From Chromatiales bacterium (lineage in GTDB: Bacteria > Pseudomonadota > Gammaproteobacteria > SZUA-140): a stretch of DNA of 33,299 nucleotides. Positions 7,950-32,644 of the stretch are shown one piece after another; the first letter of the stretch is position 1, and the number at the start of each line of letters is the position of its first letter. Both the position numbers and the translations under genes were made by a program. Location of the stretch: assembly GCA_011053135.1 (NCBI GenBank), contig DRLG01000085.1:1-33299 (forward strand), read 5' to 3'. The notes under the pieces were generated by a model. That model saw nothing but the letters and a program-made list of their open reading frames with translations, searched no databases and had not been told where the DNA came from.

Positions 7950-9626
7950 ATGAGTGAAAGTTTCGCGCAACTCTTTGAAGAGAGTCAGGTAGAAAAATTA
8001 ATGCGTCCAGGCGCTATCGTAACGGGTGTTGTGATGGCAGTTGGACCCGATGTGGTCGTCGTGAATGCAGGGCTTAAGTCTGAAGGTGTTATTCCCCTTG
8101 AGCAGTTCCTGAATGAGAAGGGTGAGCCCGAAGTCGCCGTGGGCGATGAGGTTGATGTCGCCCTGGATGCAATTGAAGATGGTTTTGGCGAAACAAGACT
8201 TTCTCGTGAGAAAGCGAAGCGTGCGAAACTTTGGGACGAGCTTGAAGAGGCTCTTGAAAGCAGTGCGATTGTAACCGGTATTATTACAGGCAAGGTGAAG
8301 GGTGGTTTCACCGTTGAGATCGGTGCAGTGCGCGCATTCCTGCCAGGTTCACTGGTCGATGTTCGTCCGGTACGTGACACCTCTTACCTTGAAGGCAAGG
8401 ATCTTGAATTTAAGGTTGTCAAACTTGATCGTAAGCGTAACAACGTCGTCGTCTCTCGTCGTGCAGTGGTTGAGAAAGAGAGCAGCGCCGAGCGTGAAGA
8501 GCTACTTGCCAACCTTCAGGAAGGGCAGGTCATTAAGGGCGTGGTTAAGAACCTTACCGATTACGGTGCATTTATCGACCTGGGCGGTATCGATGGTCTG
8601 CTCCATATTACCGACATGGCGTGGAAACGGGTCAAGCAGCCTTCTGAGATCGTTAACATTGGTGACGAGATCGACGTTAAGGTGCTGAAGTTTGATAAAG
8701 AGCGTAACCGCGTGTCGCTTGGCCTGAAACAGATGGGTGAAGATCCATGGGGTAATCTGACCCGTCGCTATCCAGTCGGCCATCAGGTCTTCGGCAAAGT
8801 GACCAACATCGCAGATTACGGCTGCTTTGTTGAGATTGAAGATGGTGTTGAAGGGCTGGTTCACGTCTCTGAAATGGACTGGACCAACAAAAACATCCAC
8901 CCTTCCAAGGTTGTTCACCTGGGTGATGAGGTAGAGGTTAAAGTACTGGATATCGATGAAGAGCGTCGTCGTATTTCGCTCGGCATGAAGCAGTGTTTCT
9001 CGAACCCATGGGAGGAGTTTGCCGCTACCCATAATAAGGGTGACAAGCTGACCGGTACCATTAAGTCGATCACTGATTTTGGTGTATTCGTTGGCTTGAC
9101 CGGTAGTATTGATGGCCTGCTGCATCTCTCTGACCTTTCATGGAATGTCTCTGGTGAAGAGGCGGTTCATAACTACAAGAAGGGAGATGAGATCGAGGCG
9201 GTCATTCTTGCGATCGACCCGGAGCGTGAGCGTATTTCACTGGGTGTTAAGCAGCTTGAGCGCGACCCGTTTTCCAACTACGTTGCCGATCATCCTAAAG
9301 GTGAGATCGTTAAGGGTGTAGTGAGCGAGGTTGATGCCAAGGGTGCAATTGTGACGCTGGCCGAGAGTGTTGAAGGTCATCTTCGTGCATCTGAGCTAGC
9401 GCGTGACCGTGTAGAAGATGCGCGTACCGTGCTGACGGTGGGTGATGAAATCGAAGCGCGCTTCATGGGTGTTGATCGTAAGAACCGCACCATCATGCTC
9501 TCTGTTAAAGCGAAAGATGCGTATGAAGAAGCGGCTGCTGTTAAAGATTATAGCCAGTCTTCAGCATCAACAGGCTCAACCACGCTGGGTGATCTGTTGA
9601 AAGAGAAAATGGAAGGCAACTCGTAG
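7950..9626 (+). CDS. rpsA: 30S ribosomal protein S1
   Basis: S1 is the large RNA-binding protein of the 30S subunit that brings mRNAs with structured or weak leaders to the ribosome. The protein is 558 aa (E. coli 557) and contains six S1/OB repeats, at roughly 21–87, 105–171, 192–260, 277–347, 364–434 and 451–520. Clear examples are [21 protein letters not shown] and [21 protein letters not shown]; each repeat closes with a D.ERNR(I/V)SLG-type strand. Base composition and codon use are the regular pattern expected of a highly expressed gene. ihfB follows after 111 bases containing a strong hairpin. Confidence 0.98.
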
Positions 9627-9637
9627 TTGATTCATGT

Positions 9638-9690
9638 CTGATCGGCTCTCCCTTGTTATTGCAAAATATCGCGTAACAAGGGATGATCAG
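9638..9690 (+). other. Long interrupted hairpin between rpsA and ihfB
   Basis: An inner perfect 9-bp stem (CCCTTGTTA at 9650–9658 pairing with TAACAAGGG at 9674–9682) is extended by an outer 6-bp stem (CTGATC 9638–9643 with GATCAG 9685–9690). It starts 12 bases after the rpsA stop. There is no T-run, so it is not a standard intrinsic terminator; it could stabilise the rpsA mRNA 3' end or act as a partial attenuator. Confidence 0.75.
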
Positions 9691-9737
9691 ATATATGCAG
9701 TCGTGTGTAGCGCTTTATCTGTTTTGGGGCGGAATAA

Positions 9738-10043
9738 ATGACAAAATCTGAGTTAATTGAAATCATCGCGCAGAAGCAAAAGCATCTATCGTATAAGGAT
9801 ATCGAATATGCTGTAAAAACCATGATCGAACAGATGGCTCAGTCACTTGCGAGTGGTGAGCGAATCGAGATTCGCGGTTTTGGTAGCTTCTCCTTGCACT
9901 TTCGCCCGCCAAGAATGGGACGCAATCCAAAGACAGGTGAGCCGGTACCGCTTTCAGGGAAGTATGTACCACACTTTAAACCAGGTAAGGAACTGCGTGA
10001 ACGAGTGAATGAGAGTATCGGGACAACAACGATTCAGGAATGA
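9738..10043 (+). CDS. ihfB: Integration host factor subunit beta
   Basis: IhfB pairs with IhfA to bind and sharply bend DNA at specific sites in recombination, replication and transcription. The protein is 101 aa, within the usual 94–100 range. It has the HU/IHF fold: N-terminal [11 protein letters not shown] helix, the [26 protein letters not shown] beta-arm region with the conserved Pro that intercalates into DNA, and the C-terminal [12 protein letters not shown] helix. A GGGGCGG ribosome-binding site precedes the ATG at 9738. rpsA–ihfB is a conserved pair; in Pseudomonas the B-band O-antigen locus starts next to it, which matches what follows here. Confidence 0.97.
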
Positions 10044-10118
10044 TCTTGTTTGATTGGCCTAATTATAATTTCAAAGCCTATCGAGCAGCAGAACTTCACA
10101 TAGAAGGGGTGTGATGAC

Positions 10119-10352
10119 ATGATGAAAATCTTTTTATTTATTTTTACGTTGGTAATTCTGATACTAGGCGCGAGCTTTACACTACTGAATGCAGAGCCGG
10201 TCCAGGTGAACTACTACTTTGGAACGGCTGAGGTTGCATTGTCTGTGGTCCTGGTGGGCACATTGGTAGTCGGAGCACTAATCGGTGTCTCTGCCACCAT
10301 GGGTAAGCTGCTATGCCTTAAGCTTCAGCTATCCAGATTGCGTCGCTCCTGA
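10119..10352 (+). CDS. lapA: LapA-domain inner-membrane protein (short)
   Basis: This 77-aa protein has two hydrophobic segments (about 3–22 and 40–62) separated by a short loop with the motif NAEPVQVNYYFG. This is the pattern of LapA/YciS (DUF1049) proteins such as E. coli LapA (102 aa). LapA works with LapB at the inner membrane in control of lipopolysaccharide synthesis. Here the protein ends shortly after the second segment (LKLQLSRLRRS), so most of the coiled-coil tail of longer homologues is missing. Its usual partner lapB is not downstream; a strong terminator follows and then pyrF. A GAAGGGGTG site precedes the start; the ATG at 10122 is equally possible. Confidence 0.85.
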   Translation: MMKIFLFIFTLVILILGASFTLLNAEPVQVNYYFGTAEVALSVVLVGTLVVGALIGVSATMGKLLCLKLQLSRLRRS

Positions 10353-10405
10353 TTAATAGCGTCTGAAAATACTGCTGCTCTAGCAGTCATAATGTTTGAA
10401 TACGA

Positions 10406-10432
10406 AGCCCCATTTTATAATGGGGCTTTTTG
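10406..10432 (+). terminator. Rho-independent terminator after lapA
   Basis: A perfect 9-bp stem (AGCCCCATT / AATGGGGCT) with a 4-base TTAT loop is followed directly by a run of T residues. It closes the rpsA–ihfB–lapA unit and separates it from pyrF. Confidence 0.93.
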
Positions 10433-10492
10433 TTATGAGCAAGGCTCATATCTGTTTTGTCGATTAACTATCTGTTGTTGGAGGTGAGCACC

Positions 10493-11230
10493 GTGAGTGG
10501 AAAGGAAAATAGAGTGATCGACCCTAAGTGCGTTATTGTCGCACTTGATTTCTCTGACTCAGGGGAAGTGATGGAGCTGGTTAGTGGGCTTGATGCGGCC
10601 AACTGTCGCCTCAAGGTTGGAAAGGAGCTCTACACCCACTGTGGTCCCGCATTAGTAGAGCGCCTGGTAGCCGATGGGTTCGATGTTTTTTTAGACTTAA
10701 AGTTTCACGACATTCCAAACACAGTGGCTGGGGCGTGTGCTGCTGCTGCAGACCTGGGAGTCTGGATGGTGAATGTTCATGCGCTGGGCGGGCGCCGCAT
10801 GATGGAGGCTGCACGTGCAGCGCTTGAGCAGAAATCACACCGGCCACTGCTGATCGCGGTGACGATTCTAACCAGCATGGGTGAAAGCGATCTGCTGGAG
10901 ATCGGTCTGTCAGGGTCAGCGCAGGAGAATGTGATACGGCTCGCAAAATTAGCAGAACAGGCAGGTTTAAATGGTGTCGTCTGCTCACCACTTGAGGTCG
11001 ATGTGTTAAATCAACTATGTGGCGAAACGTTCGGCTTTGTTACGCCAGGCATCCGCCCTGTTGGTGCGCAGGTCGATGACCAGAAAAGAGTCACCACGCC
11101 GGTTGATGCGCTAAATGCCGGGTCAGACTACCTCGTGATCGGACGGCCAATCACTGCTGCCGACGATCCGTTAGCCGCGCTTCAGGCAATTAATAGCGAT
11201 ATACGCCAATCATTCCCGATCACTGCTTGA
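10493..11230 (+). CDS. pyrF: Orotidine 5'-phosphate decarboxylase
   Basis: PyrF decarboxylates OMP to UMP, the last step of de novo UMP synthesis. From the GTG at 10493 the protein is 245 aa, the same length as E. coli PyrF. I chose this start because a strong GGAGGTGA site sits at 10480–10487; a TTG at 10457 would add 12 residues unlike the family. The catalytic motif [10 protein letters not shown] (D68, K70, D73) is intact, and the C-terminal PGIRP and [11 protein letters not shown] phosphate-binding segments are present. It is transcribed after the lapA terminator, so it probably has its own promoter in the 60 bases upstream, though I cannot pick one with confidence. Confidence 0.96.
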
Positions 11231-15211: not shown

Positions 15212-15979
15212 ATGAAAGCTGTAATTCTGGCAGGTGGTTTGGGTACAAGATTAAGCGAAGAAACTGAAACGAAGCCAAAGCCCATGGTTGAAATCGGTGG
15301 TAAGCCAATTCTTTGGCATATAATGAAAATCTACTCAGCGCACGGCATACATGATTTTATAATTTGCCTGGGATATCGTGGTTATGTAATAAAGGAATAT
15401 TTTGCAAATTATTTCTTACACATGTCTGATGTCACATTTGACATGAAAAATAATCAATTAGAAGTTCACCAGAATAATGCTGAGCCATGGCGTGTAACAT
15501 TGGTCGATACGGGGGATCAGTCTATGACTGGTGGGCGCCTTAAACGAGTGCGTTCATATTTAGATGGTGAGGACTTTTGTTTTACATATGGTGATGGTGT
15601 TGGTGATATAGATATTACTAGCCTGGTAAAATTTCACAAAGATAGCAATAAACTGGCAACTTTAACGGCTACTCAGCCGCCAGGGCGCTTTGGGGCGCTC
15701 GATCTAGATTGTAATTCAGTTTTGGGGTTTCATGAAAAGCCACAGGGAGATGGTTCCTGGGTTAATGGTGGTTTCTTTGTGCTCTCACCAAAAGTAATAG
15801 ACTATATTTATGATGATAAAACTATTTGGGAACAGGAGCCCCTTAAAAAACTTTCGGAGGAGAGACAGTTGTCAGCATTCCTGCACGAAGGTTTTTGGCA
15901 GCCTATGGATACACTAAGAGATAAAAACCATCTTGAAGAATTATGGGGGGAGGATGCCGCACCCTGGAAAGTTTGGTGA
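15212..15979 (+). CDS. rfbF: Glucose-1-phosphate cytidylyltransferase
   Basis: RfbF (DdhA) couples CTP and glucose 1-phosphate to CDP-glucose, the entry step for CDP-3,6-dideoxyhexoses in O-antigens. The protein is 255 aa (Salmonella RfbF 257). It shows [14 protein letters not shown], the [18 protein letters not shown] segment, [11 protein letters not shown], the [10 protein letters not shown] metal-binding motif and [10 protein letters not shown], all typical of this subfamily rather than of RmlA. A GAAAGGTAG ribosome-binding site precedes the ATG. The usual next gene, CDP-glucose 4,6-dehydratase, is not present; a decarboxylase-like SDR and ugd follow instead. Confidence 0.96.
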
Positions 15980-16046
15980 GAGCAATACTGTCTCTGATTG
16001 GAAGTCTTTATGAGTTGGTTTATGAACTAAAAATATGGAAGTGATG

Positions 16047-17159
16047 ATGAAAAATGCGCAAGATGTAATTCAGGCTGATCTCGATTATATTTGTGATCAT
16101 CTGGTGGACGAGTTTTCTGTTTTATCAGGTAATAAATTATTAATTACAGGTGGGGCAGGGTTTCTAGGCTACTATCTTATTCAGGCTGTTCTGTACTGGA
16201 ATTCTAGTCATAGCGATAAAGCCCCTATTGATTTGACTGTATATGATAATTATTCTCGTGGGATACCCGATTGGCTATCTTCGCTAGATGGTACTAATAA
16301 TCTAACATTGAGAAGACATGATGTGACCGATCCTCTGCCTGAGGATATTAGTGATTTTTCTTACATCATACACGGCGCTACTATTGCATCTCCTATGTAT
16401 TATAGGAAATTTCCTATTGAGACGATGGATGCCAATGTTGGGGGGCTTCGTTTCTTGCTAGAGTACTTTAAGCAGCAAAAAGAAGAAGGTAAACCTGTTG
16501 GTGGGTTCCTGTTTTATTCTACTAGTGAAATTTACGGTGATCCATCAGCCGAGAATATCCCTACGCCAGAAACATATCGTGGCAACGTGTCATGTACAGG
16601 GCCTCGTGCTTGCTATGATGAGTCTAAACGATATGGTGAAACGCTGTGCGTTAATTTTTCTCAGCAATACGACCTACCTATTAAAACCGCACGGCCATTT
16701 AATAATTATGGGCCCGGGTTGAAAATTACTGATCGTAGAGCTCTTCCTGATTTTGCACGTGATGTTTTAGCTGGTAACGACATTGTGATGTATTCAGATG
16801 GCGCTCCAACTCGAACCTTTTGCTATGTTGCTGATGCAATTGTTGGCTACTACAAAGTGCTGGTGAAAGGAAATAATGGCGAAGCTTATAATATTGGAGT
16901 TGAAGGGCCTGAGATATCAATAAAAGAGTTAGCTGAAAAAGTTGTTGAGATATCTACAGAGCTTTTTAACTATCAAGGAAAAATTGTTTTTGAGGTTAGT
17001 GAGGATAAAGAGTATTTAGTTGATAACCCTAACCGCCGTTGTCCAGTTATAGATAAAGCTCGCCATGACCTGCAGTATAACCCAGGCATAGGGTTTGAGG
17101 AGGGAATCAGGCGTTCGCTGCTCTGGTATAAAGATAATGCGATAGCAGAGGATGCATAA
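16047..17159 (+). CDS. NAD-dependent SDR resembling UDP-glucuronate decarboxylase
   Basis: This extended SDR has 370 aa from the ATG at 16047, chosen for the GGAAG site at 16037–16041 although ATGs at 16035 and 16044 are also in frame. It has the cofactor motif TGGAGFLG (about 34–41), STSEIYGDP and the catalytic Y190/K194 in GPRACYDESKR. The STSE.YGDP plus GPRACYDE.KR combination, and a TRTFCYVADA stretch later, are signatures of UDP-glucuronate decarboxylases (UXS, also ArnA-like), which make UDP-xylose or a 4-keto-pentose. A roughly 30-residue N-terminal extension precedes the Rossmann fold. Its stop overlaps the ugd start by one base, which fits use of a glucuronate nucleotide. The nucleotide (UDP or CDP) and the product are not shown by the sequence; a dehydratase function is possible. 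Confidence 0.75.
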   Translation: MKNAQDVIQADLDYICDHLVDEFSVLSGNKLLITGGAGFLGYYLIQAVLYWNSSHSDKAPIDLTVYDNYSRGIPDWLSSLDGTNNLTLRRHDVTDPLPEDISDFSYIIHGATIASPMYYRKFPIETMDANVGGLRFLLEYFKQQKEEGKPVGGFLFYSTSEIYGDPSAENIPTPETYRGNVSCTGPRACYDESKRYGETLCVNFSQQYDLPIKTARPFNNYGPGLKITDRRALPDFARDVLAGNDIVMYSDGAPTRTFCYVADAIVGYYKVLVKGNNGEAYNIGVEGPEISIKELAEKVVEISTELFNYQGKIVFEVSEDKEYLVDNPNRRCPVIDKARHDLQYNPGIGFEEGIRRSLLWYKDNAIAEDA

Positions 17160-18499
17160 TGAAAGTATCTGTATTAGGTTCCGGCTATGTTGGCCTGGTA
17201 TCGGGTGTATGTTTAGCTGAGAAAGAGCATGACGTAGTATGTGTTGATCTGGATTTAGATAAGGTAAATAAAATCAACAATGGTATTCCCCCTATTTATG
17301 AGGCAGGGCTAGAAGAACTGCTAACAAAAAATGTAGAGTCAAGAAGGCTGAAAGCAACTACAGAGTTACGAGATGCTGTATTGAATTCAGATATAACATT
17401 GATAGCCGTTGGAACTCCGTTTGATGGTGAGGTTATCGATTTAAGCTATGTGGAGGTTGCTGCGCGCCAAATAGGTGAGGCACTAAAAGACAAAAATTCA
17501 TATCACGTGGTTGTCGTTAAAAGTACGGTAGTTCCCGGTACCTCTGATGAGGTTGTTCTTCCTATTATAGAAAGCGCATCAGGAAAAAAGGCAGGCGTAG
17601 ATTTTGGCGTTGGTATGAACCCTGAATTTTTACGTGAAGGTGAAGCGATAATTGATTTTATGTACCCTGACCGTATTGTGTTAGGGGGAGGAGATGAGCG
17701 GACTCATGCGGTGTTAGAGCAGCTATATAGCTCATTTGCTGGTGTGGATATATTGAAAACAAACAACAGTACTGCCGAAATGATTAAGTATGCTTCTAAC
17801 TCATTGTTGGCAACTATGATCTCTTTTTCCAATGAAATTGGAAATTTATGCAGTTTAATCGAAGGAATAGATGCGGTTGATGTTTTTAACGGTGTACATC
17901 TAGATAAGAGAGTGTCACCTATCATGAATGATGGAAAGCGAGTCGTCCCTAGTCTCACCTCATATCTTGAGGCCGGATGTGGCTTTGGTGGAAGTTGCTT
18001 TCCAAAGGATGTAAAGGCTTTAGTTGCTTACGGTAAACGTAAAAATATGAGGATGAACTTGTTGGATTCAGTTATGGCTGTAAATCGTGATCAGCCGCAG
18101 CAGATGATTAACAGACTTACTAAGCATATACCTGATCTGGCTGGTAAAACTATCTCAGTGTTGGGGTTGGCTTTTAAGCCTGGGACTGATGATATGAGAG
18201 AGTCTCCAGCTATTCCTATTATAATGTGGCTGCATGAGCAGGGTTGTAAAGTTAAGGCCTATGACCCTATTGCACAACATGAGGCTGAGGCGGTTTTTGA
18301 ACATTATGATATTGAATATTGTAGCAAGCTATCCGAAGCCATTGATGATGTAGACGCAATCATGCTGATTACACGGTGGGATGATTTTAAGAATATTGGT
18401 CAATTAATACGTGAAAAAAACCCTCAGCCATTATTGGTCGATGGTCGTCGTATGATTGATAAAAATAGCATAGAGAATTATGAAGGTATAGGTGTGTAA
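17159..18499 (+). CDS. ugd: UDP-glucose 6-dehydrogenase family protein
   Basis: Ugd oxidises the C6 of a nucleotide-glucose twice, giving the glucuronate form. The protein is 446 aa with an N-terminal Rossmann motif GSGYVGLVSG (7–16), conserved EFLREG (156–161), K210 in EMIKYASN, and the catalytic cysteine C280 in GFGGSCFPKD. A C-terminal domain contains LGLAFKPGTDDMRESP, the UDP-binding part of the family. The start codon overlaps the previous stop (TAATG), so translation is probably coupled. In this context it may serve the UXS-like neighbour. UDP-glucose is the normal family substrate; whether this copy accepts CDP-glucose is an open question. A 134-base gap without a gene separates it from rfbH. 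Confidence 0.94.
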   Translation: MKVSVLGSGYVGLVSGVCLAEKEHDVVCVDLDLDKVNKINNGIPPIYEAGLEELLTKNVESRRLKATTELRDAVLNSDITLIAVGTPFDGEVIDLSYVEVAARQIGEALKDKNSYHVVVVKSTVVPGTSDEVVLPIIESASGKKAGVDFGVGMNPEFLREGEAIIDFMYPDRIVLGGGDERTHAVLEQLYSSFAGVDILKTNNSTAEMIKYASNSLLATMISFSNEIGNLCSLIEGIDAVDVFNGVHLDKRVSPIMNDGKRVVPSLTSYLEAGCGFGGSCFPKDVKALVAYGKRKNMRMNLLDSVMAVNRDQPQQMINRLTKHIPDLAGKTISVLGLAFKPGTDDMRESPAIPIIMWLHEQGCKVKAYDPIAQHEAEAVFEHYDIEYCSKLSEAIDDVDAIMLITRWDDFKNIGQLIREKNPQPLLVDGRRMIDKNSIENYEGIGV

Positions 18500-18633
18500 T
18501 CTCCTGCTATCAATTGAGCTGTTTAGGTTTTTGCTTGATTGCCCATGATATTAGACGGTATATGTTAAGAGCTATAAAGCTAGCTAATGATTCTATAATT
18601 TGCAATACGCTTGAATATTTGGAGTAAATACAT

Positions 18634-19944
18634 ATGAAAGATAAGGCGACTCTACGCCAGGAAATTCTTGAAAAAGTTTCTGAGTTTTATTTAGCTAGCG
18701 AATCTGAGCGTCCAGGCTTTATACCGGGGAAAAGCCTGGTTCATTATGCTGGCCGGGTTAATGATGCGGATGAAATTGTTACATTAGTCGATTCATCTCT
18801 TGATTTCTGGCTCACAGCAGGGCGATTTACAGAAGAATTTGAGTCTAATTTGGCTGATCTTCTAGGCGTAGAGAATATTTTAACAGTAAATTCTGGTTCT
18901 TCTGCTAACTTAGTTGCTGTAAGTACCCTGACTAGCCCAAAGCTTCTTGATCGTCGAATTCGCCCTGGCGATGAAATTATTACAGTAGCCGCAGCATTTC
19001 CCACTACCGTTAATCCGATTATTCAAAATCAGGCAGTGCCAGTATTTGTAGATGTAGAGTTGGGTACATATGCCCCTACTATCGAAAGTATAGAGGCAGC
19101 AATTGGTCCCCGTACGAAAGCAGTAATGTTGGCTCATACAATGGGAGTTCCTTGTGAGCTACAAGAGCTTAAAGAGCTCTGTGAGCAGAGAGGGTTATGG
19201 TTAATAGAGGATAACTGTGATGCCCTGGGTAGTCGTTACGATGAAAAGTATACCGGCACGTTTGGGGATCTGGCTACGCTCAGTTTTTATCCAGCCCATC
19301 AGATAACGATGGGAGAAGGTGGTGCTGTCATTACCAATAATGATGATCTTGCTAGAATTGCGAGAAGCTTTCGTGATTGGGGGCGTGACTGCTACTGTAT
19401 TGGAGGTGAGAACAATACTTGTGGTAAAAGGTTTAACCAGCAGTTTGGTTCACTTCCGCTTGGTTATGATCATAAGTATGTATATAGCCATATTGGATAT
19501 AACCTGAAGATTACTGATATGCAAGCAGCTATAGGAACCGCACAACTACGAAAATTACCTGACTTTATTCAAAGCCGAAAAAATAATCACGCGCAAATTA
19601 CGGCCGGTTTGCAGAAATATTCTAATAATTTAGATTTACACATATTTCCTGAAAAGGCCGATCCTTGTTGCTTTGGATATGTCGTTACTGTTAAGCCAGA
19701 GTCGAGTGTGACGCGCAATGAACTGGTTAAATTATTAGAGGATTCAAGGATAGAGACGAGAAGTCTTTTTTGCGGCAACCTGCTTCGACACCCTGCTTAT
19801 CAGGATATTGAACATCGTGTTGTTGGTGATTTGGCTAATACTGATTTAATAACAACAAACACATTCTTTATAGGTGTCTATCCCGGTATGACATCAGAGA
19901 TGATTGAGTACATGCTCAGTGTTTTTGATAAGGCGCTGAGTTAA
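18634..19944 (+). CDS. rfbH: CDP-4-keto-6-deoxyglucose 3-dehydrase (E1), PMP and [2Fe-2S] enzyme
   Basis: RfbH/AscC/DdhC removes the C3 hydroxyl of a 4-keto nucleotide sugar, with pyridoxamine phosphate and a [2Fe-2S] cluster. The 436-aa protein has the aminotransferase fold, but the PLP lysine is replaced by histidine (H222 in FYPAHQITMGEGG), the hallmark of E1. The four cluster cysteines are exactly in the family spacing C-X57-C-X1-C-X7-C, at C195, C253, C255 and C263. This strongly predicts a working 3-dehydrase. A GGAG site precedes the ATG. The reductase gene starts 4 bases after the stop, so E1 and its reductase are coupled. Known members act on CDP-4-keto-6-deoxyglucose; the dehydratase that would supply it is not in the window. 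Confidence 0.96.
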   Translation: MKDKATLRQEILEKVSEFYLASESERPGFIPGKSLVHYAGRVNDADEIVTLVDSSLDFWLTAGRFTEEFESNLADLLGVENILTVNSGSSANLVAVSTLTSPKLLDRRIRPGDEIITVAAAFPTTVNPIIQNQAVPVFVDVELGTYAPTIESIEAAIGPRTKAVMLAHTMGVPCELQELKELCEQRGLWLIEDNCDALGSRYDEKYTGTFGDLATLSFYPAHQITMGEGGAVITNNDDLARIARSFRDWGRDCYCIGGENNTCGKRFNQQFGSLPLGYDHKYVYSHIGYNLKITDMQAAIGTAQLRKLPDFIQSRKNNHAQITAGLQKYSNNLDLHIFPEKADPCCFGYVVTVKPESSVTRNELVKLLEDSRIETRSLFCGNLLRHPAYQDIEHRVVGDLANTDLITTNTFFIGVYPGMTSEMIEYMLSVFDKALS

Positions 19945-19948
19945 GGTT

Positions 19949-20692
19949 ATGGCTCAGCCGGTTAGATTTAAAGTAATCGTTAAAGCGATTAATTACCACG
20001 ATAAAGATGTTGCTAGTTATCAGCTTTACTCCGAGAAACGTTTACCACATTTTTCTCCAGGACAGTTTATTCATCTAACGATTGATGAGTTCGATCCATC
20101 GAGTTTCTGGCCTGAAAGTCGTGCTTTTTCAGTAGCGAATGCTGTATTAGATCGACATACCCTTAATTTAACTATTGGCAGGCAAGGTGATTATACAGCA
20201 CGTATACTTGATGAGCTGCAGATTGGTGATTCGATTTGGGCCAAGGGCCCGTACGGTGAATTTTGTGTCGATAAGATGGCTGACTGCGATCGTATCGTGA
20301 TGATTGCCGGTGGGACTGGTGTTACTCCCTTTTGTTCTTTTATGGACTCTGCAATAAGTCTAAAATTAATTCCAGCTGACGAAGTGATTCTCTATTATGG
20401 GGCTCGTACTTCAGATTTATTGATATATCACCAGTTAGCAGAAAGGTGCTCTCGTGCTGTTTCTGGCTTTTCAGCTAAGTATTACGTTGAACATCCCCTG
20501 GCTGGCGATAACATGGTGGATATTAATCATGGACGCTTGAGTATAGAAGCTATTAATGCTGACTTAGGGGGGTGTATGAATACTGTATTTTACATTAGTG
20601 GTCCTAAGTCAATGATTCAAGGTTTTAGTCAAGAATTGGTTGAATCATATCGGGTGGATAGTAGTCGAGTTATTCTTGATGCATGGGAATAG
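19949..20692 (+). CDS. FAD/NAD(P)H reductase partner of RfbH (E3-like) without ferredoxin domain
   Basis: The 247-aa protein is a ferredoxin-NADP-reductase-type module. An FAD-binding beta barrel holds ESRAFSVAN (about 57–64; R58 for flavin). The GPYGEF segment and the NAD(P) motif IAGGTGVTPF at 119–128 follow. Standard E3/DdhD/AscD reductases are about 325–330 aa because an N-terminal plant-type [2Fe-2S] domain of about 90 residues comes first; here it is entirely absent. Only 4 bases separate the start from the rfbH stop, leaving no room for it. Electrons must therefore pass directly from FAD to RfbH or through a separate ferredoxin. Its role beside RfbH is inferred from position; the oxidoreductase fold itself is clear. 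Confidence 0.88.
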   Translation: MAQPVRFKVIVKAINYHDKDVASYQLYSEKRLPHFSPGQFIHLTIDEFDPSSFWPESRAFSVANAVLDRHTLNLTIGRQGDYTARILDELQIGDSIWAKGPYGEFCVDKMADCDRIVMIAGGTGVTPFCSFMDSAISLKLIPADEVILYYGARTSDLLIYHQLAERCSRAVSGFSAKYYVEHPLAGDNMVDINHGRLSIEAINADLGGCMNTVFYISGPKSMIQGFSQELVESYRVDSSRVILDAWE

Positions 20693-20839
20693 TTACGCCC
20701 GGTGGAACTGATAGTTTTTGTTTCAATTTATCGTTGTTTGTGAACTTTATAGCGAGTACAACGTGCCATCGGATTTTTTAGTGCTCAGTACTGGTTAGCA
20801 TCATCATCTGTATCTGTATTTTAGCGTAGTTAGGTAATT

Positions 20840-21760
20840 ATGATTGATAAAATTCTTGTGACGGGTGCGACTGGTTATGTAGGTCGTAACTTCGTATTCT
20901 ACCTTTTAGAAAAGGGCTATGAGGTATATATCACTGTAAGAGATAGTTCTAACACCGATCTTTTTGAGTATGTAAAAGATAAGATTCATCTAGTTTATAT
21001 TGGGCCAAAAGTGACGGCTGACTCTTTATCAGAGGATATTTGTAGGATTAAACCAGATGTCGTGGTTCACTTAGCATCACTTTATATTACAGAACATAAT
21101 TCAAGTGATATTGAGTCTATAGTTGATGCGAATATTTTATTTGGAACTCAGCTGCTTGAAGCGATGGATCGCTGCGGATGTAATAAGCTCGTAAATGTAG
21201 GTACGTCGTGGCAGCATTATAATAATGCCGATTATGAGCCAGTAAATTTATATGCTGCAACAAAACAAGCATTTTTAGATGTGATTAAATTTTATAATAA
21301 ATCAAAAGGAATTCAGGTTATTGATCTTAAGTTTTTCGACACATATGGCCCTGATGATAATAGGAAAAAGATTATTCCTTTTTTAATTGACAGTGTCGAT
21401 AACATGCAAGAATTATTGCTATCGCCTGGGGATCAGAAAATTAACATAGTACATATTGATGATGTGATGGCTTGTTTAGAGCTTTCTATATTACGACTTA
21501 AAAATGAAGTGCTGTCTGATGTGGAAGAGTATGCGGTTGGCGCAGATGAGGTGGTTACGCTCAAAGAGCTCATTGGCCTGCTTGAAGCATTGCTATCAAG
21601 GAAGTTCAATATAAGGTGGGGAGGGCGGCCTTATAGAGATAGAGAGGTGATGGTGCCCTGGAATAAAGGTTTACGCTTGCCCGGTTGGTCCCCTAATGTT
21701 TCTTTAGAAGAAGGCCTTAGTAAAGTTTTAATGAAGGCTAGTGGAAAAATAAACACATGA
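20840..21760 (+). CDS. NAD(P)-dependent SDR similar to CDP-abequose/paratose synthases
   Basis: This 306-aa extended SDR has TGATGYVG (8–15), GTS at 121–123 and the catalytic Y138/K142 pair in LYAATKQAF. Enzymes of the RfbJ/Prt type reduce the 4-keto group of a CDP-3,6-dideoxy-4-keto sugar to finish abequose or paratose. Their pattern, GTSW...LYA.TK followed by LK..DTYGPDD and a VHIDDV-type segment, is seen here. It lies 147 bases downstream of the RfbH–reductase pair, fitting a final ketoreductase step. Stereochemistry and product cannot be read from the sequence; an epimerase or another dehydratase is also possible. Confidence 0.75.
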   Translation: MIDKILVTGATGYVGRNFVFYLLEKGYEVYITVRDSSNTDLFEYVKDKIHLVYIGPKVTADSLSEDICRIKPDVVVHLASLYITEHNSSDIESIVDANILFGTQLLEAMDRCGCNKLVNVGTSWQHYNNADYEPVNLYAATKQAFLDVIKFYNKSKGIQVIDLKFFDTYGPDDNRKKIIPFLIDSVDNMQELLLSPGDQKINIVHIDDVMACLELSILRLKNEVLSDVEEYAVGADEVVTLKELIGLLEALLSRKFNIRWGGRPYRDREVMVPWNKGLRLPGWSPNVSLEEGLSKVLMKASGKINT

Positions 21761-25388: not shown

Positions 25389-26513
25389 ATGATAATGAAA
25401 GTTGTGCATGTTTTAGCTGGGAAAGCAAATCCGGAAACGATGAATGGAGTCAATAAAGTGGTTCACCATTTATCTGAAGAGCAAACAAATAATGGATTAG
25501 ATGTGGAGGTTTGGGGGCTTACTAAGTCGAGCCTTACTTCGGTTCATTCGCATAATTATAAGCTGAAATTGTTTTCTATGATGAGGACCAGGTTTTCTAT
25601 TTCACCTGAGCTAACTGCAGAAATTGAGGCAAGTAATGCCGATATTGTCCACTTTCACTCGGTGTTTATACCCGAGTTCTTTGTGATCGCTAAACTTTTA
25701 TCTAAAAATAAAACCCCCTGGGTTATTACACCGCATAGTGGTTATTCGACTGAGAGCATTGCCCATAACTATCTACTTAAAGTCATGTACTTCAGGGTGT
25801 TTGAAAAATACCTGATTAAAAACTCAAGAGCGATCCATTTGCTCGGTATAAGAGAAAAAGGCTTATTAAGTAAGCATTGTGATGATAATAAATTTGTGAT
25901 TATCCCTAATGGGCATAATGTTTGTGAATTGGTAGACCATATTGAAAAGAGGAGTGAGCTTCCACTGTTTGGCTTTTGCGGAAGACTGTCTATAAGGCAT
26001 AAAGGATTGGATCTGTTATGTCTAGGCTTTGCAGAATATGTTCAATCCGGGGGTAAAGGGAATCTGAGGATTATAGGTGGAGGAGAGGTCGAGCAGCTCA
26101 AAGCAATTATAAATGAGCTCGGGCTTGAGTCTAGAATCGACGTTATGGGGCCTCTTTTTGGTACGAAAAAAGTTGAAAGTATTCGACATATGGATGCTTT
26201 TATTCATACCTCTAGATGGGAAGGAATACCGATGGCAGTACTGGAGGCTGCTTCAATGAAAATTCCTGTTTTGATTACAGAAGAAACCAACCTGGGTTCA
26301 TATGTTAGAAGGCATAATGCTGGATACGTATTGAAGGATAATTCAGCTCACAATATTAGTGATGCGTTACATAAGCTTGAGGATGATTTTGTACACAAAA
26401 GGATATATCCTATGGGTGAAAATGCAAAATCAATGATCATTAATGATTTCTCCTGGTCATTTGTAGAGGCCCAGGTTAGGCATGATCTATACAATCTTGG
26501 TGATTCCTCATGA
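25389..26513 (+). CDS. Family 4 glycosyltransferase
   Basis: The 374-aa protein has a GT-B fold. The N-terminal half contains MNGVNKVVHHLSEE and DIVHFHSVFIPEF. The C-terminal nucleotide-sugar-binding half begins near 195 (FGFCGRLSIRHKGLDLL) and carries TSRWEGIPMAVLEA, the E-x7-E motif of retaining GT4 enzymes. It is likely to add a sugar to the repeat unit. ATG 25389 or 25395 may be used; no strong ribosome-binding site is visible just after repeat copy B. Its stop overlaps the next start (ATGA). The sugar donor is unknown. Confidence 0.92.
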   Translation: MIMKVVHVLAGKANPETMNGVNKVVHHLSEEQTNNGLDVEVWGLTKSSLTSVHSHNYKLKLFSMMRTRFSISPELTAEIEASNADIVHFHSVFIPEFFVIAKLLSKNKTPWVITPHSGYSTESIAHNYLLKVMYFRVFEKYLIKNSRAIHLLGIREKGLLSKHCDDNKFVIIPNGHNVCELVDHIEKRSELPLFGFCGRLSIRHKGLDLLCLGFAEYVQSGGKGNLRIIGGGEVEQLKAIINELGLESRIDVMGPLFGTKKVESIRHMDAFIHTSRWEGIPMAVLEAASMKIPVLITEETNLGSYVRRHNAGYVLKDNSAHNISDALHKLEDDFVHKRIYPMGENAKSMIINDFSWSFVEAQVRHDLYNLGDSS

Positions 26514-27823
26514 AGTTCTCTGATTTTATTATTTCGCTTCTTAAGGAGTTCAACTCTAATGATGTTACATATTGTATCCTGAGAAATTATAAATCGCTTC
26601 CCAATGTAAACGATGGGAATGATATCGATTTTCTGGTTCGACAAGCAGATCTTGCTAAGATCAGTGAGGTTCTATACGCACTGCCAGGTATGGTGGTAAC
26701 AGGCTATGCAAAAAGGCCATATGTAGTATCATTTTTTTTGTTCGGTATTAATGATGAGGGAGTAGATACTGGAATCCAGGTTGATTTTTTTATATCACTT
26801 AGCTGGAAAGGGATGCCGTATATTGATGCCGATCAAATGCTAACAACATCTCGCCCTTTTTCTAATAATGAGTTAATTATTATTCCAGATATAAAGTATG
26901 AGGCTGTAAATAATCTTTTCTCGAGTTATTTGGTGGGGGGATGGATTAAAGAGAAATATCTTGATGGGATTCTAGTTGTATTTAGCAAGCACTTAGATCA
27001 AGTTATAGAGATTTTATCTCGCACATTTGGGCATAACTTGTCTAAAGAGTTGGTTGAGAATTTGTTAGCTAATAACAGGCAATATTTGCTTGGTATGATG
27101 CTGTGGAAATTACGAACAATGTTGGTTTATATAAATATCACCTCATCACCAATACCTATGCTAAAAGGGTTATTTTCTTATTATAAGTATGAGGTTTTAT
27201 ATAGAATGACTTCATCAAATATAGATGATGTGGTTTTTCTAGGTGTCGATGGGGTAGGTAAATCGACAGTAATTAAGTCAGTAGTTCGCGATTTAAAGAA
27301 TACAACTAAAGAAATTGGTGTGTGCCACTTAAGGCCAGGTTTGTTCAAGCGTTCAAATAATAATATAGATGTATCTGATCCGCATGCAATGCCAGAACGA
27401 TCTTTTTTATTTTCTATGATTAAACTTCAATTATGGACAGTGGAGCTATGGTTGAATAAGGTATTTCATGGGCATAAAAATATTACACTGAGAATATGGG
27501 ATCGATATTATCATGATATTTTTATTGATCCTAAACGCTATAGGTATAGAACTGGTGGTGCGAGATTACTTGGAAGGCTTATTCCTAAGCCTAAGCTATG
27601 GATTCTACTTGATGCATCATCCGATGTTGTTTTAGGGCGGAAGCAAGAGGTTTCAACTGAAGAATGTGAGCGTCAAATCGAATCTTATAGGAAATTTATA
27701 ACTTCAGTGAGTGGTGGAGTGGTTATTGATGCGTCACAAACGGAGGGTAATGTTCTTAGTGACGTGAAGGCGGTGATTATTGATTACATGATCAAGCGAA
27801 CTAATGAACGTGTTAACCGCTAG
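26510..27823 (+). CDS. Nucleotidyltransferase-like/thymidylate-kinase-like fusion protein, function unknown
   Basis: This 437-aa protein joins two modules. Residues 1–130 resemble a minimal nucleotidyltransferase fold (TYCILRNYKSLP, then NDIDFLV with D38/D40, and D92 in IQVDFF as the possible third metal ligand). Residues 240–437 resemble thymidylate-kinase-type P-loop kinases (FLGVDGVGKST at 243–253, WDRYYHDIFID with the DR pair near 330, LWILLDA). The middle is helical. Proteins of this design occur in polysaccharide loci but I know of no firmly assigned reaction. It overlaps the preceding GT by 4 bases and the following kinase-like gene by 20. A role in phosphorylating or nucleotidyl-modifying a glycan component is inference only. 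True TMP kinase activity is unlikely in this context. Confidence 0.75.
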   Translation: MKFSDFIISLLKEFNSNDVTYCILRNYKSLPNVNDGNDIDFLVRQADLAKISEVLYALPGMVVTGYAKRPYVVSFFLFGINDEGVDTGIQVDFFISLSWKGMPYIDADQMLTTSRPFSNNELIIIPDIKYEAVNNLFSSYLVGGWIKEKYLDGILVVFSKHLDQVIEILSRTFGHNLSKELVENLLANNRQYLLGMMLWKLRTMLVYINITSSPIPMLKGLFSYYKYEVLYRMTSSNIDDVVFLGVDGVGKSTVIKSVVRDLKNTTKEIGVCHLRPGLFKRSNNNIDVSDPHAMPERSFLFSMIKLQLWTVELWLNKVFHGHKNITLRIWDRYYHDIFIDPKRYRYRTGGARLLGRLIPKPKLWILLDASSDVVLGRKQEVSTEECERQIESYRKFITSVSGGVVIDASQTEGNVLSDVKAVIIDYMIKRTNERVNR

Positions 27824-28940
27824 CTCTATTCTTAGAAAGGTCTTTCGTGTAATGCATAACACGAATATATCAGTTTATTCTCGCCCGGATAAAAGTTCTA
27901 ATGAAGGGTGCTTTTACATTATTCCTGGCACAAATGGCCCTAGATGGATTGTCCCATGTGACGCACGAACTGGATTAAAAGTCCTGATTAGTTGGCGGCC
28001 CTACTCAACCCTCGCTAGGGTTAAGTGGTGGATTGCGACAGGATTATACCGGGTCGGTGCGTTAAGGTATGCCCCAGGTGTTAGTCGGCTCTATTTTAAG
28101 AGGGAATGTTATGAATATGGGGCTTGTTCATGGGGGGAGGTGATAAAAAACTGCCACCCTGTTATTTATGTAGGTACTTATGGTGAGTTCCAGAAATTTG
28201 TTATTACCTATGTCGATACTATCACTGCTCTTCCTAAGTGTGTTGTGAAAGTGCCTTACGGGCATATGGCAAAACAATCTATAGTGAATGAAGCGAATAC
28301 TCTAGAGCAATTAAGCATAGAAGACAGAGGGCTTAACATACCTAAGCTGTTTTCTTTAAATGAGGATAGAGGTGTCTCTGTTCAATCGATTGTTGAGGGG
28401 AGACTGTCGAGTGAGCGATTTACTGAGAGGCATGTGGATGTACTGTTAAAGCTTATCAATCATGGCAGTACAGTGTGTATAAAGAGTGATAGTGAGCCAT
28501 TGATAGAGGCTCTAAATGCTAAAAATATGCCAACTACAACAGGGCATGGCTTTATTAAAAATACCTTACTAGGGCTCGATGGGGCGCTGTTACTCCCTTC
28601 CACCTGGGAGCATGGTGACTTTACGCCATGGAATATAAAAATAGCACACGATGATCTTGCGCTCCTTGATTGGGAAGCAGCTGTTAAAAATGGAGTGCCT
28701 TTGCAGGATATATGTCATTTCTTTTCTATGCAAGAGTACCTTCTTGATCGGACTCAGGATCACATATCTGAAATTATCTCATCAAGTCAGGTAAATAGGT
28801 ATATTAGCGTTTTAGGTATACGGCAAGAATATGTTTTGGAGCTGATCAAATATTATCATATTAAGAGCTGGTGTAAGAGTGTTATTCAGGATCCTGGATA
28901 TGCAGAATTTTCATTGGGAAAATTAAAAGGGATTAGATGA
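27804..28940 (+). CDS. Aminoglycoside-phosphotransferase-fold kinase, substrate unknown
   Basis: The 378-aa protein has a kinase core in its C-terminal two thirds: K149 in CVVKVPYG and E163 in VNEANTLEQL as ATP-binding residues, the catalytic-loop motif HGDFTPWNI at 270–278 (D272 base, N277), and LLDWEAA with D289 as metal ligand. This is the APH/choline kinase fold. About 140 N-terminal residues (W/R-rich, LISWRPYSTLARVKWW) do not look like a kinase and I do not recognise them. The gene overlaps the NTase–TMK-like fusion by 20 bases and the next glycosyltransferase by 4. A small-molecule or sugar kinase role in the locus is inferred; antibiotic resistance is not suggested by the context. Confidence 0.8.
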   Translation: MNVLTASSILRKVFRVMHNTNISVYSRPDKSSNEGCFYIIPGTNGPRWIVPCDARTGLKVLISWRPYSTLARVKWWIATGLYRVGALRYAPGVSRLYFKRECYEYGACSWGEVIKNCHPVIYVGTYGEFQKFVITYVDTITALPKCVVKVPYGHMAKQSIVNEANTLEQLSIEDRGLNIPKLFSLNEDRGVSVQSIVEGRLSSERFTERHVDVLLKLINHGSTVCIKSDSEPLIEALNAKNMPTTTGHGFIKNTLLGLDGALLLPSTWEHGDFTPWNIKIAHDDLALLDWEAAVKNGVPLQDICHFFSMQEYLLDRTQDHISEIISSSQVNRYISVLGIRQEYVLELIKYYHIKSWCKSVIQDPGYAEFSLGKLKGIR

Positions 28941-30166
28941 AAATACTGGTCTCTGCATACGCATGTGAGCCTAATAAAGGTTCAGAGCCTTCAGTTGGAT
29001 GGGAGTGGGCTGTTGAACTCTCAAAACTAGGGCATGAAGTTTGGGTGATAACACGTGCTAATAATAAAGTTAATATTGATAAAGAATTACTAAGCCGTAA
29101 AAACTTGGAGAGTTTACATTTCGTATACTACGATTTACCAGAGAAGATATGTTCCTGGAAAAAGAGAAGTGGACTGGTTAGATTGTATTACCTGCTATGG
29201 CAGTGGTGGGCCTATAGGCATATTATTGCAAAGCATGAGGAGATAGGTTTTGATTTTGTTCACCATGTGACCTTTGTGAGTGTGCGACAGCCTAGTTTTA
29301 TGGGTAATCTGGGGATCCCTTTTATTTTTGGTCCTGTAGGAGGGGGGGAAAAAGCACCGTTAAATTTACGCCAGGGGTACGGAGTACGAGGCGTGATTCT
29401 TGATGCTATACGTGACCTGTTAAATAAGTTAGTCAAAGTCGACCCTCTCATGTGGATGACTTTTAGGCAGGCTAATGGGATTTTTGTCACTTCCCCGCAA
29501 ACTAAATCTTTGATACCCAGGCGATATTGGCAGAAAACAAAAATACTGCTAGGAATAGGTCTAGATTCTTCATTTTCTGAAACTTTACCTGCACTAATCA
29601 AGCAGGAGCCTAATGTGGGCGGTGCAAGGATCCTATATGTAGGAAGATTGATTTATTGGAAGGGTATGCATCTTGGCCTGTCTGCATTTGCCAGCACTAT
29701 TAAGTCTATCCCGCATGCCCGGTTAACAATTGTAGGCTCTGGCCCAGATGAAAAGCGTTGGCGCCGTTTGGCTAAGAACCTGGGGGTTGATAACAACATT
29801 ACATGGGTGCCATGGGTCAGGCAAAGCGAGTTAAAGGAGGTATATGCCAAACATGATTTTTTTCTTTACCCTAGCTTGCATGATTCTGGCGGAATGGTTT
29901 TACTTGAATCTATGGCATATGGCTTGCCTGTTGTTTGTTTAAATGTAGGTGGACCTGGTGTGATTGTAGATGAGTCATGTGGATTGGCGGTGAATATAGA
30001 AAATGAGCAGAAAAGGGTCATTGAAGATCTGTCGAATGCAATAAAAGTGTTGAGTAATGATAGGGTTTTGTATGCACGATTAAGCAAAGGAGCAATCGCT
30101 CGAAGTAAAGCGTATATCTGGAAAAATATGTCAGCTGAGCGAGCAAAGGTATTATTCGCGAAATGA
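28937..30166 (+). CDS. Family 4 glycosyltransferase
   Basis: The 409-aa GT-B protein begins MKILVSAYACEPNKGSEPSVGWEWAVEL cut across a typical GT4 N-terminal glycine-rich region, followed by FVHHVTFVSVRQP and FGPVGGGEKAP. The C-terminal domain starts near 235 (LYVGRLIYWKGMHL), with VGSGPDEKRW and HDSGGMVLLESMAYGLPVV. The E-x7-E motif has an atypical first position (Asp/Ser), as in a recognised GT4 subgroup. It probably extends the lipid-linked oligosaccharide. It is coupled by an ATGA overlap to the upstream kinase-like gene and by 4 bases to the polymerase downstream. Confidence 0.92.
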   Translation: MKILVSAYACEPNKGSEPSVGWEWAVELSKLGHEVWVITRANNKVNIDKELLSRKNLESLHFVYYDLPEKICSWKKRSGLVRLYYLLWQWWAYRHIIAKHEEIGFDFVHHVTFVSVRQPSFMGNLGIPFIFGPVGGGEKAPLNLRQGYGVRGVILDAIRDLLNKLVKVDPLMWMTFRQANGIFVTSPQTKSLIPRRYWQKTKILLGIGLDSSFSETLPALIKQEPNVGGARILYVGRLIYWKGMHLGLSAFASTIKSIPHARLTIVGSGPDEKRWRRLAKNLGVDNNITWVPWVRQSELKEVYAKHDFFLYPSLHDSGGMVLLESMAYGLPVVCLNVGGPGVIVDESCGLAVNIENEQKRVIEDLSNAIKVLSNDRVLYARLSKGAIARSKAYIWKNMSAERAKVLFAK

Positions 30167-31509
30167 TGATACGACTCACCCGTAATGATTTAATTCTTTG
30201 GGTTATAGGGCTCTATCTGGTATTGAATTATGGTTTTATGCAGTTTCGAATCCCTCCTGTTGGTGGGGGCGGTGTTCCGTTGGGTGAGTTAGTTCTTCTG
30301 TTAGTCCTTCTTAAGGTAAATTATTTAATTGTATATACTCGTCTTTCTAATGTTGTTTTTCTATTTCCATTTATTGTTTGGTGGGTTTACGGGCTAGGGC
30401 GAGCGCTTGCTGGGGTCCCAGAGTTTGGTATGTGGGCTTTGAGGGACGCAAGTCACGTTATTGAATCATTGTTTATAATAATAGGGTTTATTGCTGTATC
30501 CAGAGAAAGAGATCTTGAGCGTTTTTTTTATTGGCTACCAAGAGTCTTAATAGTCATTAGTATTTATTCGCTAGGTTTTATGTTCAAAGATACTCTTCAG
30601 GGGTGGTCGCCTTCAATTGTCGCTGGAGGTGGGCATGATACGCCAGTTTTATTTAACTATGCAAATACAGCGCAATTACTACTGTGGGCTGCTGTTTATA
30701 TATTATTGTTTAAGGTTGGTGTGAGCAGTTTACCTAATTATTTATTAGTTCTTATTGCTACTGTATTGATAGGTTACGCTGTTTTATTGTTCCAGGGTCG
30801 TATCACCTATCTACAGCTAATTGTTTTGTTTTTATTGTTGCTGCTCTATAGACGTGAGCTCATTGGACAGGTTATTTTTAGCCTTTTTTCTATTTTAATA
30901 TTCCTTTTAATTTTACCTTTTACTGGGATTCAGCTGGAGGGGAGGTTAGGACAGGAGCTTTCAGTCGATTTCATAGCTAAACATATTGCAACAATTGGCG
31001 GGATTTCAGCTGATGGTGTGGCAGGTTCTGCAGCTGGTGTTCATCAGCGCATTGGGTGGTGGTCTGAACTCTTCTTTGCATGGACGTCAAGTGTCAAGAC
31101 ATTCATATTTGGGCTTGGCTATGGTATGCCCTTGATTGATTTTACTTTAGCAAGTGGGGCGGTAGTTCGGGAGCCTCATAATTCATATATCTCAATTCTG
31201 GCTCGTCTTGGTGTGGTTGGAGCTATAACGTGGGTATGGATGCATCTTATTCTAATTGTAGTATGGATAAATGCGTACAGGAAATGCACCCACGTTCGCT
31301 GGAGAGAAGGTCAAAATCGTCTTCTAATTTTACTAGTTTTCTTTGTTTTAATTTGGGTGCTTGCTCTTGGTCAGGATGCGTTTGAAAAGCCTTACAATGC
31401 GATCCCATATTATTTTTTCTGGGGCGTTATACTACGCTTTATGTTTAATTTAAAAGAAAAAATAAGGCGCCAACAAGAAGAGCCATATGCGGATATTACA
31501 AGTCCATAA
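30163..31509 (+). CDS. wzy: Wzy-type O-antigen polymerase (or ligase-family protein)
   Basis: This 448-aa protein has about 11–12 membrane segments and a large non-membrane loop at roughly 256–310. The loop is followed by GWWSELFFAW and the Wzy_C signature REPHNSYISILARLG at 336–350. Polymerases of this family join undecaprenyl-linked units at the periplasmic face. The related WaaL ligases share the same domain, so ligase is the alternative, but the place in the middle of the cluster with Wzx and Wzz favours polymerase. A T8 run lies within the gene (about 30522–30529). The start overlaps the previous stop by 4 bases; the 3' end overlaps the next glycosyltransferase by 23 bases. Confidence 0.85.
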   Translation: MMIRLTRNDLILWVIGLYLVLNYGFMQFRIPPVGGGGVPLGELVLLLVLLKVNYLIVYTRLSNVVFLFPFIVWWVYGLGRALAGVPEFGMWALRDASHVIESLFIIIGFIAVSRERDLERFFYWLPRVLIVISIYSLGFMFKDTLQGWSPSIVAGGGHDTPVLFNYANTAQLLLWAAVYILLFKVGVSSLPNYLLVLIATVLIGYAVLLFQGRITYLQLIVLFLLLLLYRRELIGQVIFSLFSILIFLLILPFTGIQLEGRLGQELSVDFIAKHIATIGGISADGVAGSAAGVHQRIGWWSELFFAWTSSVKTFIFGLGYGMPLIDFTLASGAVVREPHNSYISILARLGVVGAITWVWMHLILIVVWINAYRKCTHVRWREGQNRLLILLVFFVLIWVLALGQDAFEKPYNAIPYYFFWGVILRFMFNLKEKIRRQQEEPYADITSP

Positions 31510-32644
31510 TCGTTATTGCCAGGCAGGTGGTGAAGACTCAGTCGTTAAGGCAGAAGGAGGGCTTCTCGATCACATGGGGGAAACTGTTTTACTTGAACAG
31601 GTAGATAATTCCAGTATTAATGGCTTTATGGGAAAAGCAATGGTGGGTGCCTCTGTTGTTTATTCTAAAAAAGCAAGAAGCAGACTAGAGGCTAAAATTA
31701 AAGACTTCAGACCAGATGTTGTACATGTACACAATTTCTTTCCATTATTGAGTCCTTCAATCTTTGATGCATGTGGTGAATTAAAGGTTCCTGTGGTTTG
31801 TACACTGCATAATTATAGGTTGATGTGTGCAGGTGCCTTTTTAATGCGTGATGGGAGTGTATGCGAGATATGTATTAACAAATCACCATATCATGCTCTA
31901 TTGTATGGCTGTTATCGAAATTCACGTATTGGCACTTTCTTTGTTGCCAGGATGATTGAGTCAATTAGGAAAAAGAATAATCTGGCTAATAGTGTTACAA
32001 GGTTCATTGCGTTAACAGATTTTTCAAAGGAAAAATTTACGCAAGCCGGTTTCCCTTCTCATCAGATAATGGTTAAGCCTAATTTTTCTAATGATAATAT
32101 GGCTTTCCCTCGCTGCTTTGATGGTGGGGCTTTGTTTGTGGGTAGGCTTAGTGTGGAAAAAGGTGTTGGAACACTCATTGAATCTTGGCAGGATTTATCT
32201 GTTCATATGACTATTATAGGAGATGGCCCCTTACGAAGTGAAGTAAACTCTTGTGGGATAGACAATATCTCTGTTCATGGTTGGTTACCTTTTGATGAGG
32301 TCTCCAAGTTTATGTCAAAAGCAAGTTTTCTCATTATGCCATCACAATGGTATGAGGGATTCCCGATGGTTCTGGTTGAGGCATTTTCTCGCGGCTTGCC
32401 TGTAATCGCTTCTAAGCTCGGTGGAATGGCTGAAATTGTGGAAGATGGCGTGACTGGCCTGCATTTTAAAGTGGGTGATGCAGAAGATTTGGCTGAAAAG
32501 GTACGTTGGATGCATTCCCACCCAGAAGCGTGTAAGCGTATGGGAAGCAATGCAAGAAAAGTGTACTTAGAGAAATACACTTCTGAAGTGAACTACAAAA
32601 TGCTTATGAATATCTATCAAGAGGCAATAGATAGTTATGCATAG
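31487..32644 (+). CDS. Family 4 glycosyltransferase
   Basis: The 385-aa GT-B enzyme starts MRILQVHNRYCQAGGEDSVV, has DVVHVHNFFPLLSPS and CTLHNYRLMCAGAFL in the N-terminal acceptor domain, and a cysteine-rich stretch (CEICINKSPYHALLYGC) seen in a subgroup of GT4 proteins. The C-terminal domain shows FVGRLSVEKGVGTLIE and EGFPMVLVEAFSRGLPVI, the E-x7-E motif. Its start lies 23 bases inside wzy and its stop 8 bases inside the next gene, so the three are translationally coupled. Sugar specificity is not readable. Confidence 0.93.
   Translation: MRILQVHNRYCQAGGEDSVVKAEGGLLDHMGETVLLEQVDNSSINGFMGKAMVGASVVYSKKARSRLEAKIKDFRPDVVHVHNFFPLLSPSIFDACGELKVPVVCTLHNYRLMCAGAFLMRDGSVCEICINKSPYHALLYGCYRNSRIGTFFVARMIESIRKKNNLANSVTRFIALTDFSKEKFTQAGFPSHQIMVKPNFSNDNMAFPRCFDGGALFVGRLSVEKGVGTLIESWQDLSVHMTIIGDGPLRSEVNSCGIDNISVHGWLPFDEVSKFMSKASFLIMPSQWYEGFPMVLVEAFSRGLPVIASKLGGMAEIVEDGVTGLHFKVGDAEDLAEKVRWMHSHPEACKRMGSNARKVYLEKYTSEVNYKMLMNIYQEAIDSYA

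Follow-up and report, generated by a model that had tools for sequence, protein, structure and literature searches.

Genes A and B of the window (the whole stretch of 33,299 nucleotides that was analysed) encode a nucleotidyltransferase (NTase) fused to a thymidylate-kinase-like (TMK-like) P-loop kinase, and an APH/choline-kinase-fold kinase, respectively. The NTase, TMK-like and APH-like active sites are intact, and both genes are coupled to membrane-side proteins of polysaccharide assembly. We tentatively interpret A and B as a conserved phosphoryl-transfer module of polysaccharide clusters, which would phosphorylate a lipid-linked unit at the membrane and then give it a phospho-linked substituent. 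The presence of the pair in distant bacteria points to a widespread phosphorylation step in surface-sugar synthesis.

Genomic context of the A/B pair

In the 5′ part of the window are genes of aromatic amino-acid synthesis, together with those for cytidylate kinase, an S1-domain protein, a bacterial DNA-binding protein and an OMP-decarboxylase-like protein. The polysaccharide cluster starts at about 11.7 kb. Its early genes encode a Wzz-like protein, ManC, a Gmd-like dehydratase, a glucose-1-phosphate cytidylyltransferase and an NDP-sugar dehydratase, followed by a UDP-glucose-dehydrogenase-like protein, RfbH, a reductase and an epimerase-like protein. Positions 15212-21757 likely hold the genes of a CDP-3,6-dideoxyhexose branch, dehydratase, reductase and epimerase-like protein included; the cytidylyltransferase and RfbH in this interval exceed NCBIfam cut-offs. 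The late genes are arranged in the order Wzx-like flippase, glycosyltransferases, A, B, GT4, Wzy-like protein and another GT4.

Genes A (26510-27823, 437 aa) and B (27804-28940, 378 aa) and their neighbours are all encoded on the + strand. Directly upstream of A lies a GT4 glycosyltransferase (25389-26513) with the motif 'KANP...NGVNKVVHHL'; this glycosyltransferase family occurs in 24 loci, and its representative at locus L028 is also placed directly upstream of A. Downstream of B are a conserved GT4 neighbour of the pair with the motif 'SAYACEP...GSE..GW' (28937-30166), a Wzy/O-antigen-ligase-like membrane protein (30163-31509; PF04932, 32.8 bits) and a second conserved GT4 with the motif 'HNRY..GGEDxV' (31487-32644). 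The original prediction held that A and B overlap their neighbours by 4-20 bases, and the ORF coordinates bear this out, with overlaps of 4 bases between the upstream GT4 and A (26510-26513), 20 bases between A and B (27804-27823) and 4 bases between B and the following GT4 (28937-28940).

A is a nucleotidyltransferase fused to a thymidylate-kinase-like kinase

The N-terminal domain of A (residues 1-229; 26510-27196) is, from its profile, an NTP_transf_5-type (Pol-β-fold) nucleotidyltransferase of predicted activity. When compared with NTP_transf_5 (PF14907) members by hhalign, the domain profile gave a probability of 95% (E 3e-8). The alignment spans about 130 columns and places the DxD motif in register, and the domain also keeps the third acidic residue; the profile of B, used as a control, scored 0.1%. 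The PF14907 Pfam model itself found no match in A of the window at E up to 1, and it matched 2 of 62 A homologues weakly (E up to 0.01). When the whole A model was searched with Foldseek, only TMKs appeared among the 50 matches listed, and the NTase assignment thus rests on sequence profiles.

The C-terminal domain (residues 238-434; 27221-27811) is TMK-like by both profile and fold. It matches solved TMKs with a profile E of about 2e-11, its fold is that of TMK in Foldseek comparison (with a target TM that reaches about 0.7), and 56 of the 62 homologues match the thymidylate kinase family PF02223 at E up to 0.01. The AlphaFold model of A has a pLDDT of 94 and a pTM of 0.91. A housekeeping thymidylate kinase was considered and rejected, given the NTase fusion partner, the cluster context and a score of 14.6 bits against the dTMP kinase equivalog, for which the cut-off is 83.25. 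In the profile alignment, the FLASRN stretch of T. maritima TMK, which we take to help bind thymine, is replaced in A.

Conservation was counted over homologues drawn from many phyla, 62 for A and 52 for B. In the NTase domain, the putative metal-binding DxD motif (D38/D40; 26621-26629) is kept in 62/62 (D38) and 60/62 (D40) sequences, and the third acidic residue D92 (26783-26785) is Asp in 58/62. In the kinase domain, K251 of the P-loop GVDGVGKST (245-253; 27242-27268) is found in 61/62, D331 and R332 of the DR motif (27500-27505) in 58/62 and 61/62, and R377 and E380 in all 62. The catalytic motifs first predicted for A are thus all present at the expected positions, and are invariant or nearly so.

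B is an APH/choline-kinase-fold kinase with a family-specific N-terminus

B carries the complete APH/choline kinase signature, namely the N-lobe lysine K149 (28248-28250), the helix-C glutamate E163, the HxD....N catalytic loop HGDFTPWN (residues 270-277; 28611-28634) and the DxE metal motif DWE (D289-E291; 28668-28676). E163, H270, D272, N277, D289, E291 and D302 are present in 52/52 homologues, and position 149 is Lys in 49 and Arg in 3; the motifs originally read in B (HGDFTPWN, K149 and D289) are therefore correctly placed. The window protein scores 22.6 bits against Pfam APH, for which the gathering score is 23.2, and 42 of the 52 homologues match this family at E up to 0.01. The structural model (pLDDT 92, pTM 0.90) has the APH/choline-kinase fold. 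Kinases of antibiotics, homoserine, methylthioribose and choline resemble this fold to about the same degree, and B could thus act on a small molecule. Aminoglycoside resistance is not favoured for B in view of its gene context and family-specific N-terminus.

The N-terminal extension, for which about 140 unrecognised residues had been proposed, was corrected to about 115 residues (27804-28148), since the kinase N-lobe begins near residue 117. It recurs in the family and is modelled with fair to good confidence, at a pLDDT of about 76-96 that falls to 58 immediately ahead of the N-lobe. Within it, a partly amphipathic helical segment (residues 54-92) is cationic, with a net charge of +5.7 per 39 aa as compared to -0.5 for the whole kinase domain, and its net charge is positive by 3 or more in 49/52 homologues. 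This segment may have a role at the membrane surface.

A and B are linked across distant phyla

A gene-neighbourhood survey of other polysaccharide clusters, suggested along with the original prediction as a check on the pair, was carried out by a contig scan with A as the sole query. The resulting 80 loci belong to Proteobacteria, Acidobacteria, Verrucomicrobia, Flavobacteriia, Bacillota, Nitrospirota, Vampirovibrio relatives, Planctomycetes and one archaeal MAG. After a six-frame rescan, B was found to be encoded in 59 of the 80 loci across distant phyla, mostly adjacent to A; among the 21 loci without B, several end at a contig edge close to A. Before the rescan, 56 pairs had been counted, of which 44 have the order A>B and 11, with both genes on one strand, the order B>A; in the remaining pair the genes are on opposite strands. 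The genes mostly overlap or are separated by a few bases. The 'SAYACEP' GT4 accompanies 51 of 74 loci and the 'HNRY..GGED' GT4 33 of 74, again as counted before the rescan.

The association was also evident among 369 genomes of the class, of which 14 match the NTase profile, 20 the B profile and 8 both (Fisher p = 4e-8). In all eight (G000, which is that of the window, G015, G074, G080, G166, G177, G220 and G254) the A and B matches lie close together. With the GT4 as query and E below 1e-55, seven genomes were retrieved, six of them with A and B; the copy in G166 is on another contig. By single-protein search, A and B were both absent from the sampled relatives of the same order; G015, of the same genus, has distant relatives of both, found together by profiles.

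Variations on this arrangement were observed. The NTase domain was undetected in three TMK-like loci (L034, L038 and L103), and the kinases may thus work without the NTase in some systems. The gene run at L038 is a flippase-like gene, TMK, B and GT4. In an exopolysaccharide cluster on plasmid p1 of Agrobacterium leguminum (L018), A and B are about 4.4 kb apart, annotated as hypothetical protein and phosphotransferase, respectively, with nos denitrification genes nearby; in strain AT13 the two plasmid genes are PX860_RS27065 and PX860_RS27090. Culturable hosts of the module include Flavivirga, Colwellia and A. leguminum. A family that looks like WecG/TagA/CpsF-type glycosyltransferases by sequence is found near the module in 29 loci (for example, L061 15347-16111). 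A specific tie to GDP-fucose genes was considered and set aside; such genes are frequent, not universal, with 21 loci holding a GDP-fucose-synthase-like family and 18 a Gmd-like one.

Natural fusions connect the pair to the assembly machinery

A and B are fused to each other at four loci from different phyla (L020, L039, L069 and L088). B is fused to GT4 at L024, and A to GT4 at L057 and L062. Fusions of A to a hexapeptide acetyltransferase were detected by Pfam at L019 and L056 and by sequence reading at L025. At L067, L087 and L065, B or the TMK domain is joined to a polytopic flippase-like membrane protein. This membrane family received no name from Pfam or NCBIfam; by hhalign it gave a probability of 92% with the flippase-like set of L105/L018 and 30% with the Wzx of the window, and it is likely a flippase judging from these profiles. 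Taken together, the fusions tie A and B to the assembly of lipid-linked repeat units.

A and B are under purifying selection

Near-identical genes on a Thiotrichaceae MAG contig (L026) served as reference for dN/dS. The values were 0.31 (A, partial), 0.19 (B) and 0.13 (GT4 and Wzy alike), indicating that all four are under purifying selection. The divergence of A and B is coupled, with a mirror-tree correlation of r = 0.70 (n = 44; maximum 0.18 after shuffling) to which shared species history contributes. The idea that A and B are decayed genes was rejected, as their active sites are conserved and dN/dS is low. Degraded catalytic residues in orthologues had been named at the outset as evidence that would count against the pair, and the lineage of L025 is the sole case of this kind. 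Here the A-acetyltransferase fusion (9111-10886, G292) has lost the P-loop (LVPQGTSKWE) and has no B nearby; this copy of A appears to be decayed or repurposed.

Proposed mechanism and alternatives

In the mechanism that we tentatively favour, the cationic N-terminal helix would keep B at the membrane face, and B would phosphorylate a hydroxyl of either the undecaprenyl-linked repeat unit or the sugar handled by the adjacent GT4. The TMK-like domain of A could then add a phosphate to that phosphate or supply a nucleotide, and the NTase domain could transfer a nucleotidyl- or glycosyl-phosphate group. The outcome would be a phosphate or phosphodiester, installed before export as a substituent or as a linkage. 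The order of these steps is guesswork, with the kinase acting ahead of the NTase by analogy to PsmK and PsmN of pseudomycoidin.

Activation of a donor, which is close to the original prediction, is a serious if somewhat less likely alternative. The substrate of B would then be a sugar or small molecule in free form, and the NTase and TMK-like domains of A would convert the phosphorylated compound to a nucleotide-activated donor for the adjacent GT4. The tight tie to one GT4 subfamily, including the B-GT4 and A-GT4 fusions, and the existence of small-molecule kinases within the APH superfamily are consistent with such a route. However, known sugar nucleotidyltransferases, such as the RfbF-type enzyme and ManC of the cluster, have the unrelated NTP_transferase fold, Pol-β-type NTases usually have acceptors that are large or preformed, and the flippase-like fusions are unexpected for a soluble precursor pathway. 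The GT4 linkage and the flippase-like and glycosyltransferase fusions agree with modification of a lipid-linked unit no less well than with precursor activation. The original prediction of a linked phosphorylation or nucleotidyl-transfer step is thus retained as regards a functional pair in polysaccharide assembly, given the linkage across phyla, the four A-B fusions, the coupled divergence and the intact active sites; its proposed product, an activated or modified non-sugar substituent or unusual sugar, is conjectural.

The fusions to several machinery components and the protein-kinase-like fold of B could also be explained if B and A phosphorylated or nucleotidylated assembly proteins (GT4, flippase, Wzy), thereby controlling synthesis with the glycan unchanged, and Pol-β-fold enzymes do include protein and tRNA nucleotidylating enzymes. 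Such regulation seems unlikely, since regulators are usually dispensable and variable, whereas the A/B active sites and the order of the genes are retained from phylum to phylum, and the best profile matches of B are small-molecule kinases. It is very improbable that A and B are unrelated tailoring enzymes which modify different things and co-occur only since clusters move as blocks. Polysaccharide clusters are indeed mobile, A occurs without B in some loci, and single-protein search did not recover either in the sampled order relatives, though G015 has distant forms of both; the A-B fusions in different phyla, the 59/80 linkage and the co-location in every class genome with both genes argue against this reading.

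Returning to the modification of lipid-linked units, A and B may perhaps constitute a widespread two-gene module in which a kinase-kinase-nucleotidyltransferase route installs a phosphate or glycosyl-phosphodiester on such units, a route conserved from Proteobacteria to Verrucomicrobia, Bacteroidota, Acidobacteria, Bacillota and at least one archaeal MAG. Annotation of surface polysaccharides relies mainly on glycosyltransferases, flippases and polymerases. A conserved pair of intact kinases and an NTase, fused to the assembly machinery in several lineages, suggest either that sugar chains are phosphorylated more often than one would gather from known structures, or that phosphorylation regulates their assembly.

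Comparison with known systems

Each domain of A and B belongs to a known superfamily, but neither a description of the module nor the conserved combination with its GT4 and flippase-like coupling was found in the open-licence literature searched on thymidylate kinase in exopolysaccharide or O-antigen, PF14907 and related topics. A resembles thymidylate kinases (PF02223) in fold, P-loop, DR motif and the C-terminal half of the kinase, and differs from them in the NTase fusion, the sugar-cluster setting and the missed dTMP kinase cut-off. With NTP_transf_5, an uncharacterised nucleotidyltransferase family, it shares the core and the DxD motif, the fusion to a P-loop kinase being the difference.

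By profile and fold, the nearest known kinases to B are choline kinases such as LicA. B is like LicA, the eukaryotic choline kinases and the APH superfamily at the level of fold and of the HxD....N and DWE motifs, the latter also present in pneumococcal LicA here; identity is about 14%, and the N-terminal extension sets B apart. WbdD, the O9a chain-terminating kinase-methyltransferase, is a kinase of O-antigen synthesis whose target is the growing glycan; it belongs to an ABC-transporter pathway and carries a methyltransferase. Its profile match to B is weak and not significant (E 0.03).

A precedent for the pair as a whole may be the kinase and nucleotidyltransferase of the lasso peptide pseudomycoidin, which together give a phospho-hexose group. 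A serine is phosphorylated by PsmK, and attachment of hexoses to that phosphate requires the NTase PsmN, an addition that may be indirect according to a review (PMC9266682, PMC8498205). The substrate there is a peptide, and lasso-peptide kinases are described as HPr-kinase homologues, in contrast to the APH fold of B.
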